This document shows positions 22,196-24,035 of a stretch of DNA of 31,415 nucleotides, one piece after another. Source of the stretch: a virus; the IMG/VR virus record IMGVR_UViG_3300021508_000004, positions 1-31,415 of that record; one strand, given 5' to 3'. Both the position numbers and the translations under genes were made by a program. A model generated the notes under the pieces. It was not told where the DNA came from, did no database searches, and was given only the letters and a program-made list of their open reading frames with translations. Each line of letters opens with the position of its first letter. The first letter of the stretch is position 1.

Positions 22196-22936
22196 CTAAT
22201 TGTAACCATCTGTATTGTTAACGTCACTCATCATTGCCTCGTGAACTCGTCTCTCTGTTTCGCTTGTTCTGTCTATCGAGGACACCATTGCAGCAAACTC
22301 AGCAACATTTACGCTGTCCATGAACACATGTGGTAGCATACCAAAATCCTTGGCTACACTATAAAATGATTCGCACTCTCCCATCAATGTATAACAGTGT
22401 TTGTATTCAATGTCAGAGAGCTTCTCCGAACCCATCCTTTCACCTATATCGTCCATCAACAGTACAAACCCCTCGAAGAGTAGTTTGATATGTCTCTTTG
22501 AACTACGAGGAAGGAGCCTCTTTTTAATGTCCGTCTTCATTCTTCGATGGGCATACACTGTCGACATACTATCGGGTATGCCTTGTTCATATGACCTTCT
22601 AAACGACAACCACTCCTCTCCCTTCACATTACACACAGCAAGTATCCAAACAGAATAGAATGCCCACATAGCAAGACTCTCCTTGGTGGGTTCCTTCGGT
22701 ACTATATTAATAATGTGATTGAAGGTAGACAGGGATGGGTATGGCAAGGATAGTGTTACTCCCTCTAATGTGAAGTAAAAATCCTTGAGTAAAAAGTCGG
22801 TGGGTTTGAAATGAAAGACCGTAGCCAGTTTGTCTGTGGGGTCTTTGTACTCACCGTATTTGTCTTCGAATTCTGCTCGTTCTTTAACAAGTTCTGCACG
22901 TATGTTAAAGAATTCATTTGATAGTTGTTCGGACAT
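22196..22936 (-). CDS. Hypothetical tail-region protein (246 aa)
   Basis: No family recognised. Helical throughout, with a basic middle (MKTDIKKRLLPRSSKRHIKL) and an aromatic-rich N-terminal half. Starts at 22936 with CTGGAGGGAA immediately upstream. It is the first gene after the structured RNA region 22937-23252 and is followed by a terminator, so it sits as a unit between the tail tube and the remaining tail genes. It could be a tail chaperone or a tail-completion protein, but the length is long for a chaperone. Confidence 0.6.
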   Translation of the reverse strand: MSEQLSNEFFNIRAELVKERAEFEDKYGEYKDPTDKLATVFHFKPTDFLLKDFYFTLEGVTLSLPYPSLSTFNHIINIVPKEPTKESLAMWAFYSVWILAVCNVKGEEWLSFRRSYEQGIPDSMSTVYAHRRMKTDIKKRLLPRSSKRHIKLLFEGFVLLMDDIGERMGSEKLSDIEYKHCYTLMGECESFYSVAKDFGMLPHVFMDSVNVAEFAAMVSSIDRTSETERRVHEAMMSDVNNTDGYN

Positions 22937-22966
22937 TTCCCTCCAGAAAAAGTATGTTATGTGAAT

Positions 22967-23047
22967 TGGAGAAGCTCAGACTCGAACTGAGGTCCGTGCC
23001 GGTTCCCACAAGGGGCTGTCCGCCACGTCGATACCATTCTCTTCCCC
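22967..23047 (-). ncRNA. tmRNA-like tRNA-like domain without message part
   Basis: An 81-nt element in RNA order. GGGGAAG (23047-23041) pairs with CTTCTCC (22974-22968) as a 7-bp acceptor stem with G3:U70, followed by A73, the alanine identity features of tRNA-Ala and tmRNA. Next is AGAATGGTATCGAC (23040-23027), a D-loop with no D stem, close to the 5' sequence of tmRNA. A capped stem follows: GTG/CAC and CGG/CCG, with a CCC/GGG tip. Then comes GGAC (as in E. coli tmRNA before its T arm) and a perfect T arm CTCAG-TTCGAGT-CTGAG (22991-22975). No anticodon arm fits. The tag frame and pseudoknots of tmRNA are absent: only 31 nt join D-loop and GGAC. CCA is not encoded. Family likeness is from memory. 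Confidence 0.6.
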
Positions 23048-23087
23048 TTTGGTGTCGGTCAAGTATTTCATGAGTTAGAATTCATTC

Positions 23088-23125
23088 CAATGTATGATGT
23101 ATACCCATGATACATACCGACATTG
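23088..23125 (-). ncRNA. Hairpin H4 upstream of the tRNA-like domain
   Basis: CAATGT (23088-23093) pairs with ACATTG (23120-23125), and inside ATGTAT (23097-23102) pairs with ATACAT (23110-23115), 12 bp with a small internal loop. No T run follows, so it is not a terminator. Confidence 0.55.
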
Positions 23126-23127
23126 TA

Positions 23128-23160
23128 GAGTAACAACCCAGCTATGCAAGATTGTTACTC
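23128..23160 (-). ncRNA. Hairpin H3
   Basis: A perfect 9-bp stem, GAGTAACAA (23128-23136) with TTGTTACTC (23152-23160), and a 15-base loop. It lies two bases from H4. No T run on the transcribed strand. Confidence 0.6.
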
Positions 23161-23166
23161 AGTTGT

Positions 23167-23195
23167 GTGCGAGATGGCGCTAACCATCATCGCAC
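23167..23195 (-). ncRNA. Hairpin H2
   Basis: GTGCGA/TCGCAC (23167-23172 with 23190-23195) continues as GATGG/CCATC (23173-23177 with 23184-23188) with one bulged base and a 6-base loop: 11 bp. This is the most stable-looking of the four. Confidence 0.6.
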
Positions 23196-23205
23196 GTGTG
23201 GTCTA

Positions 23206-23239
23206 TGTAGGTGTGACGGAGGGAGGACACAATCCTACA
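23206..23239 (-). ncRNA. Hairpin H1, just after the tail tube stop
   Basis: TGTAGG/CCTACA (23206-23211 with 23234-23239) and TGTG/CACA (23212-23215 with 23228-23231), with a two-base bulge and a 12-base loop. It starts 14 bases after the tail tube stop codon. There is no T run, so it could stabilise the mRNA end or belong to a larger structured RNA ending in the tRNA-like domain. Confidence 0.55.
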
Positions 23240-23252
23240 TTAATATTTGGTG

Positions 23253-24035
23253 TTACGACTTCTTCGCTTTCCAGTACATTACCTGTACGTCGCCTTCTAC
23301 TTCGTTAGCAATACTGAAGTTTACTGTCACAGGGGAGTGTGCTTTGTTTCCTGCACCACGTTCCTGGTCAATCTTCGGAGTAGCTTTCTTGAAGTAATAA
23401 GTAATCTGACCATCAGGCTCACCTGGACGTACCCATCTCATCTCAACCATTAGTTCGATTGGGTTGGGGGTCTGACCCGGTTCGTCGTATGCGTAGATTA
23501 CGTCGGCATCAGTGTACCAGTAAGTGGTATACACTTTTACATCGTTCTGGTCTACGTTAAATTCAATACCCGCTGGTGATGCTGTTACAACCATCTGGTT
23601 AGAGGTTGGTGCAGCAGCTACTCTGCTGTAGTATTGTTTGTCGTTGTTACTGTCCAGTTTGTATACCTCAGCAACACCTTCGCTGTCTGTATTAGTCAGC
23701 AAGGGAGTATTGTCAAGAGTAATCGCACCGGCCGCAACAGTTTGTTCCTCGTCGAGAGTCTTTACACCGGCACCTGAGCCTTCAATAGTATAACCAAGCA
23801 TCGCAGCGTCCGTATCAGGACCAGTCTGGTTGAATACTAGAGTCGTCTCTAGTTTCTTACCTAGCGTAAAGTCGTACTCTGTCATGGCTTCCTCGTTACC
23901 GATAGGGATAGAAACTGTGTCACCTGAATATTTCAGGTTAAACGAGTTGAAACCACCCAGAGAGATATGGTTCGTAGCGTCATAGGCAAATCCTTGACCT
24001 AATATACTACCTTCCATGTATGCGCGTCCAGCCAT
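23253..24035 (-). CDS. Major tail tube protein (260 aa)
   Basis: Beta-rich, soluble, with no membrane or cysteine motif; begins MAGRAYMEGSILGQGFAYDA. Its size, its strong ribosome site (AAGGAGATAAATA) and its place after the connector genes and before the tape measure fit the major tail tube protein that stacks as rings around the tape measure. The region after its stop is a structured RNA segment. No sheath gene is present, so a non-contractile tail is likely. Confidence 0.7.
   Translation of the reverse strand: MAGRAYMEGSILGQGFAYDATNHISLGGFNSFNLKYSGDTVSIPIGNEEAMTEYDFTLGKKLETTLVFNQTGPDTDAAMLGYTIEGSGAGVKTLDEEQTVAAGAITLDNTPLLTNTDSEGVAEVYKLDSNNDKQYYSRVAAAPTSNQMVVTASPAGIEFNVDQNDVKVYTTYWYTDADVIYAYDEPGQTPNPIELMVEMRWVRPGEPDGQITYYFKKATPKIDQERGAGNKAHSPVTVNFSIANEVEGDVQVMYWKAKKS

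Follow-up and report, generated by a model that had tools for sequence, protein, structure and literature searches.

A mini-tmRNA without a message domain in a viral contig: fold, relatives and putative role against host ribosome rescue

Can a virus carry a transfer-messenger RNA (tmRNA) that has a tRNA-like domain (TLD) and no message, and what would such an RNA do in an infected cell? The question is raised by a locus in the window, by which we mean the whole stretch of 31,415 nt analyzed here (IMG/VR record IMGVR_UViG_3300021508_000004, positions 1 to 31,415), where a preliminary description had proposed a mini-tmRNA, or TLD-only tmRNA. The RNA is 81 nt long and lies at 22967–23047 on the minus strand. 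Judged by its sequence motifs and their conservation, it is a real and very probably functional RNA, and phages probably use mini-tmRNAs of this kind to interfere with host ribosome rescue.

Fold and class of the 81-nt RNA

Read along the minus strand from 23047 to 22967, the parts follow in the order GGGGAAG - AGAATGGTATCGAC - GTGGCGGACAGCCCCTTGTGGGAACCGGCAC - GGAC - CTCAG TTCGAGT CTGAG - CTTCTCC - A. The 5′ strand of the acceptor stem (GGGGAAG, 23041–23047, with G3 at 23045) forms seven of seven pairs with CTTCTCC at 22968–22974, in which U70 is 22970; the 3′ strand and the discriminator A73 (22967) together span 22967–22974. Both alanine determinants, G3:U70 and A73, are present, and CCA is not encoded, the sequence from A73 onward being AATTCA. 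The D-loop AGAATGGTATCGAC (14 nt, 23027–23040) is stemless and holds the only perfect copy of ATGGNNTCGAC in the window. The GGAC linker (22992–22995), which corresponds to G332–C335 of Escherichia coli tmRNA with numbering matched by count, precedes a T arm of five perfect pairs (CTCAG-TTCGAGT-CTGAG, 22975–22991). Contacts of SmpB on tmRNA have been described at U17, C18, G19 and A334 (PMC8363625); with numbering matched by count, equivalents of all four occur by position, the first three in the D-loop. At the place of the message and pseudoknots stands a capped arm of 31 nt (GTGGCGGACAGCCCCTTGTGGGAACCGGCAC, 22996–23026), folded as an outer stem with one G.G mismatch, an A-rich internal loop and a CCC/GGG hairpin. 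Every part named in the preliminary description, from the 7-bp acceptor stem to the capped stem of 31 nt, was found in place.

A descriptor comprising the acceptor and T arm matched once in the window, against an average of 0.19 matches in each random window, and none of 150 random windows gave a match that also carried TCGAC and GGAC. Thermodynamic folding of the RNA was ordinary (z score, −0.4), so the evidence for a mini-tmRNA consists of motif and conservation, not of stability.

For class assignment, RNA detection programs were applied to the window. ARAGORN gave no match to the mini-tmRNA, Rfam gave nothing at the gathering score, and the tmRNA family RF00023 had no match in the window record. 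The best Rfam tmRNA match was to permuted tmRNA (RF04321), which scored 11.7 bits where the cut-off is 47. A covariance model, R1, was then built from 16 relatives with the window excluded; it recovered 22967–23045 at 60 bits (E = 1.1e-13), while full-length bacterial tmRNAs and tRNAs scored at most 32 bits with it and tRNAs at most 31. The ARAGORN and Infernal searches suggested at the outset had a divided outcome, in that existing tmRNA and tRNA models do not match the window and the model made from relatives does. A tmRNA-type TLD lacking a message domain, as originally claimed, is borne out by the sequence and the R1 match. Two neighboring classes could be ruled out: a permuted two-piece tmRNA, by the score below cut-off and the standard order of the halves, and a full-length tmRNA, by the mere 31 nt that separate the D-loop from GGAC and the lack of an RF00023 match in the window record.

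Relatives and conservation

Relatives were sought with the pattern ATGGNNTCGACN{16,46}GGACNNNNNTTCRANTC, which imposed the D-loop core and GGAC and left the acceptor free. At least 120 viral contigs were matched, and all counts from this search are lower bounds. In bacterial and archaeal genomes (257 billion bases) the same pattern found 23 loci, three of which carry the fold (L134, L142 and L143). Among the viral matches listed, to which the following counts refer, 117 of 120 loci have a fully paired T stem together with 6–7 acceptor pairs, although the pattern demanded neither. Removal of near-duplicates left 58 non-redundant sequences with a mean identity of 63%; G3:U70 is present in 57 of these and A73 in all 58, both positions having been free in the pattern. 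Most relatives are 77–81 nt long. A strict pattern for window-like RNAs gave no match.

As the D-loop core and GGAC had been fixed in advance by the first pattern, the D-loop and stems were tested with a second search, which used the arm AAAGCCGCACGCGGA, GGAC and TTC only. This gave 37 contigs, of which 33 had not been seen before; 22 distinct sequences were represented. A perfect acceptor, a perfect T stem, G3:U70 and A73 were present in all 22, and the D-loop read GG..TCGAC in 19 and a variant of the same in the other three. Since a search based on the arm returns sequences with full stems, G3:U70 and A73, the arm is a conserved part of the RNA. Overall, the fold is carried by at least 150 viral contigs, as well as by four cultured phages.

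When 16 relatives were aligned, 96.2% of the cells paired and 17 of the 23 pairs changed on both sides, values that were reached in none of 500 shuffles; a larger set of relatives agreed on covariation. Within the acceptor stem, G:U persists at 3:70, in contrast to positions 4 to 6, which vary freely. In the arm, the plan shared by the relatives is a covarying outer stem, an asymmetric A-rich internal loop and a short capped hairpin. Covariation had been named in the preliminary description as a check on its proposal; neither of the losses that it held would count against the RNA, of pairing or of G3:U70, was seen.

Relatives reach the RF00023 cut-off although the entire message domain is absent, and ARAGORN missed most of them or fused them into false longer tmRNAs. 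Copies not annotated as RNA, scoring 66–82 bits, were identified in the Streptomyces phages LuckySocke, pSt2308 and BRock and in Stenotrophomonas phage Jojan60, in each case within or next to a tRNA cluster; GiJojo was matched by blastn. Other blastn matches were set aside as permuted tmRNAs (Pseudomonas SM1, Ruegeria RpAliso and cyanophages) or full tmRNAs (Wakanda and Phabba), and Gordonia PantheRoc, Microbacterium Skylord and Vibrio D419, with weak R1 scores (28–37 bits), were left out of the count. A single RF00023 match of ~80 nt was present in 38 of 40 phage records, which may be fragments; no full-length tmRNA match was obtained in the phage records searched, nor an SmpB gene in any of the 40.

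On the bacterial side, R1 found one mini-tmRNA in 396 Actinomycetota genomes, the very one on which that search was centered, while 398 Pseudomonadota genomes gave none; with the 11 best candidates per genome scored, both are weak negatives. In three bacterial genomes that carry a mini-tmRNA, a full tmRNA of the host is present too. The two share an acceptor stem in two of these genomes, a number too small for inference.

Several minor variations were seen. A73 is followed by C in 64 of 64 relatives on the plus strand of their loci, and the full CCA is mostly not encoded; the window differs in having A at this position. In a 69-nt mini-like RNA near tRNA-Ala (L032:3059–3127, minus strand), U3.U70 replaces G3:U70; this RNA could be a natural variant that is not charged. 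An Anaerolineae genome contains a degenerate second copy (L134:592–668, plus strand) that has the same arm and lacks the TGG..TCGAC D-loop; it sits 68 nt before an intact 64-nt mini-tmRNA with a 16-nt arm. Another second copy, with an altered T loop (L031:5–81, plus strand), shares its contig with an intact one.

Putative action on host ribosome rescue

Our preferred reading, of moderate confidence and based on sequence features, is that the phage encodes a TLD-only tmRNA whose role is that of a decoy against host trans-translation. The RNA would be excised from its transcript in the manner of a tRNA and receive CCA from host enzymes, and host alanyl-tRNA synthetase would be expected to charge it with alanine through G3:U70 and A73. 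Host SmpB would bind the elbow formed by the D-loop and GGAC. Because it has neither a resume codon nor a tag frame, the mini-tmRNA would be unable to complete trans-translation, and it would therefore sequester SmpB and perhaps also occupy the A site of stalled ribosomes. The presumed benefit to the phage would be less tagging and degradation of the proteins made during infection.

Published systems offer both parallels and contrasts. The preliminary description had considered a tag-less phage tmRNA to be new, which it is not, for Mycobacterium phage DS6A was already known to have a "TLD only" tmRNA (PMC4131195, PMC11915505). A similar RNA reportedly inhibits tmRNA in E. coli (PMC4131195, PMC11915505), and does so independently of charging (PMC4131195). 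The DS6A RNA shares the message-less TLD with the window RNA, a likeness that concerns one phage and is drawn from description rather than from sequence comparison of the arm or D-loop. Of the 97,179 sequences in a 2025 tmRNA database, nine are classed as "standard, no CDS" (coding sequence) forms, and DS6A is the sole phage example named (PMC11915505). No report of a widespread phage class of TLD-only tmRNA was found in the literature covered, where partial coverage makes this weak evidence of absence. The TLD-only kind is thus known and barely sampled; its breadth and the conserved arm look new. With bacterial one-piece tmRNA (RF00023) the window RNA shares the acceptor with G3:U70 and A73, the stemless D-loop, GGAC and the T arm, but it has no tag frame, resume codon or pseudoknots and measures 81 nt against 374 model positions. 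Tag-less mitochondrial tmRNAs of jakobids and others, and plastid forms of ~65 bp in Mallomonadaceae, are likewise cut down to the tRNA-like part; they differ in being organellar, often permuted and kept beside the SmpB of the same cell. In the engineered Thermus thermophilus TLD (PDB 2CZJ; PMC3985003), the 5′ and 3′ ends of tmRNA (25 + 34 nt) are similarly joined by a short cap, and the molecule is SmpB-bound in the crystal (PMC3985003), but it is a laboratory construct with a UUCG cap and without the conserved arm.

Several points weigh against the decoy reading or limit it. The decoy role, expression, charging and SmpB binding are all read from the sequence. The window arm has a mismatch, and although its plan is kept, its sequence differs from the common one. 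The window's own lineage lacks sequenced relatives: no protein relatives of the window phage were found in four scans of viral contigs, and isolate matches to its TerL, portal and capsid proteins show only 21–29% identity. Phage records may be fragments, and failure to find SmpB or tmRNA in them does not prove that the gene is absent. Finally, the conservation of G3:U70 is stricter than a role as a pure SmpB sponge should require, since the inhibition by the similar RNA was reportedly independent of charging. Strict retention of a pair not needed by a pure decoy suggests that charging matters, so the RNA may act on the ribosome, by blocking it or freeing it untagged.

One form of such action would be a tag-free rescue, in which the charged mini-tmRNA and host SmpB take the nascent chain and clear stalled ribosomes without a degradation tag, aided by drop-off or another release factor. 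The strict G3:U70 and A73 point to a use of alanine, and SmpB occurs together with mitochondrial tmRNAs that have no tag frame (PMC11915505, PMC7050145); the RNA offers no stop codon for peptide release, however, and the effect reported for a similar RNA is inhibition of tmRNA. We consider this reading unlikely. Less probable still is a role in cis, in which the RNA would serve within the mRNA as a tRNA-like signal that directs RNase P/Z processing or controls the downstream gene. In the window the RNA does lie in a run of same-strand genes, 31 nt ahead of a start codon and downstream of a highly structured stretch, but neighbors differ among phages, 7 of the 58 relatives listed are antisense to both, and cutting would not need SmpB- and alanine-specific bases. 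The variety of contexts and orientations favors a trans-acting RNA.

Two further readings were rejected. Genes for tmRNA are frequent sites of integration for phages and islands, which carry the 3′ part of the gene (PMC10865867); a relic or an attachment-site fragment of a host tmRNA gene could arise in this way, but here both TLD ends are kept and covary, the RNA lies within a structural gene run, and no integrase-like product occurs among the window's open reading frames (ORFs) above 300 aa; such an origin is very improbable. Hardly any weight is left for an ordinary or degenerate tRNA: the acceptor and T arm are tRNA-like and some copies sit in tRNA clusters, but there is no D stem, no anticodon loop and none decodable in the arm, ARAGORN and the Rfam tRNA model (RF00005) find nothing in the window, and tRNAs reach no more than 31 bits with R1. 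The better fit to a plain tRNA that the preliminary description had allowed for did not materialize; of its two suggested functions, a decoy agrees by analogy with published work on a similar RNA, and a relic is at odds with the strong covariation and the breadth of the class.

Beyond the decoy reading, we tentatively entertain, at somewhat under even chances, a widespread, dedicated class of phage RNA that takes over SmpB-dependent rescue, with the arm as a second functional module and an effect exceeding SmpB titration, stalled ribosomes being, for example, held or freed untagged. With occurrences in at least 150 viral contigs and in four cultured phages, a curiosity becomes a class, which makes it testable whether phages routinely shut down or rewire trans-translation; the Streptomyces lividans phage LuckySocke provides a laboratory system for the mini-tmRNA.

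Genomic surroundings

In the window, the mini-tmRNA lies in the run of structural genes, at a point between the capsid and the tape-measure genes, and both flanking genes are on the same (minus) strand. Upstream is a gene of 260 aa (23253–24035) and downstream one of 246 aa (22196–22936); the latter starts 31 nt past the RNA and is preceded by GGAGGG at 22939–22944. The 205 nt directly upstream of the RNA (23048–23252, minus strand) form four strong consecutive hairpins (z score, −5.86; 0 of 200 shuffles). No Rfam family was found in this region, and an RF02912 match upstream of the mini-tmRNA (14.6 bits) was at chance level. Among relatives, z scores below −2 occurred in 37% of 160-nt upstream flanks vs 18% of downstream flanks of the same length.

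In another lineage the mini-tmRNA sits between head protease and major head protein genes, and elsewhere such RNAs adjoin terminase, primase, helicase or tRNA genes. Orientation to the neighbors varies, and a tRNA lies within 1 kb in 15 of the 58 non-redundant matches listed. In one viral contig a Pistol ribozyme (RF02679, 51.9 bits; L048:6093–6154, minus strand) precedes the mini-tmRNA by 106 nt on the same strand. Far from the RNA, the window also encodes a sigma-factor-like protein at 535–1083 on the minus strand (phrog_1740, E = 3e-16).
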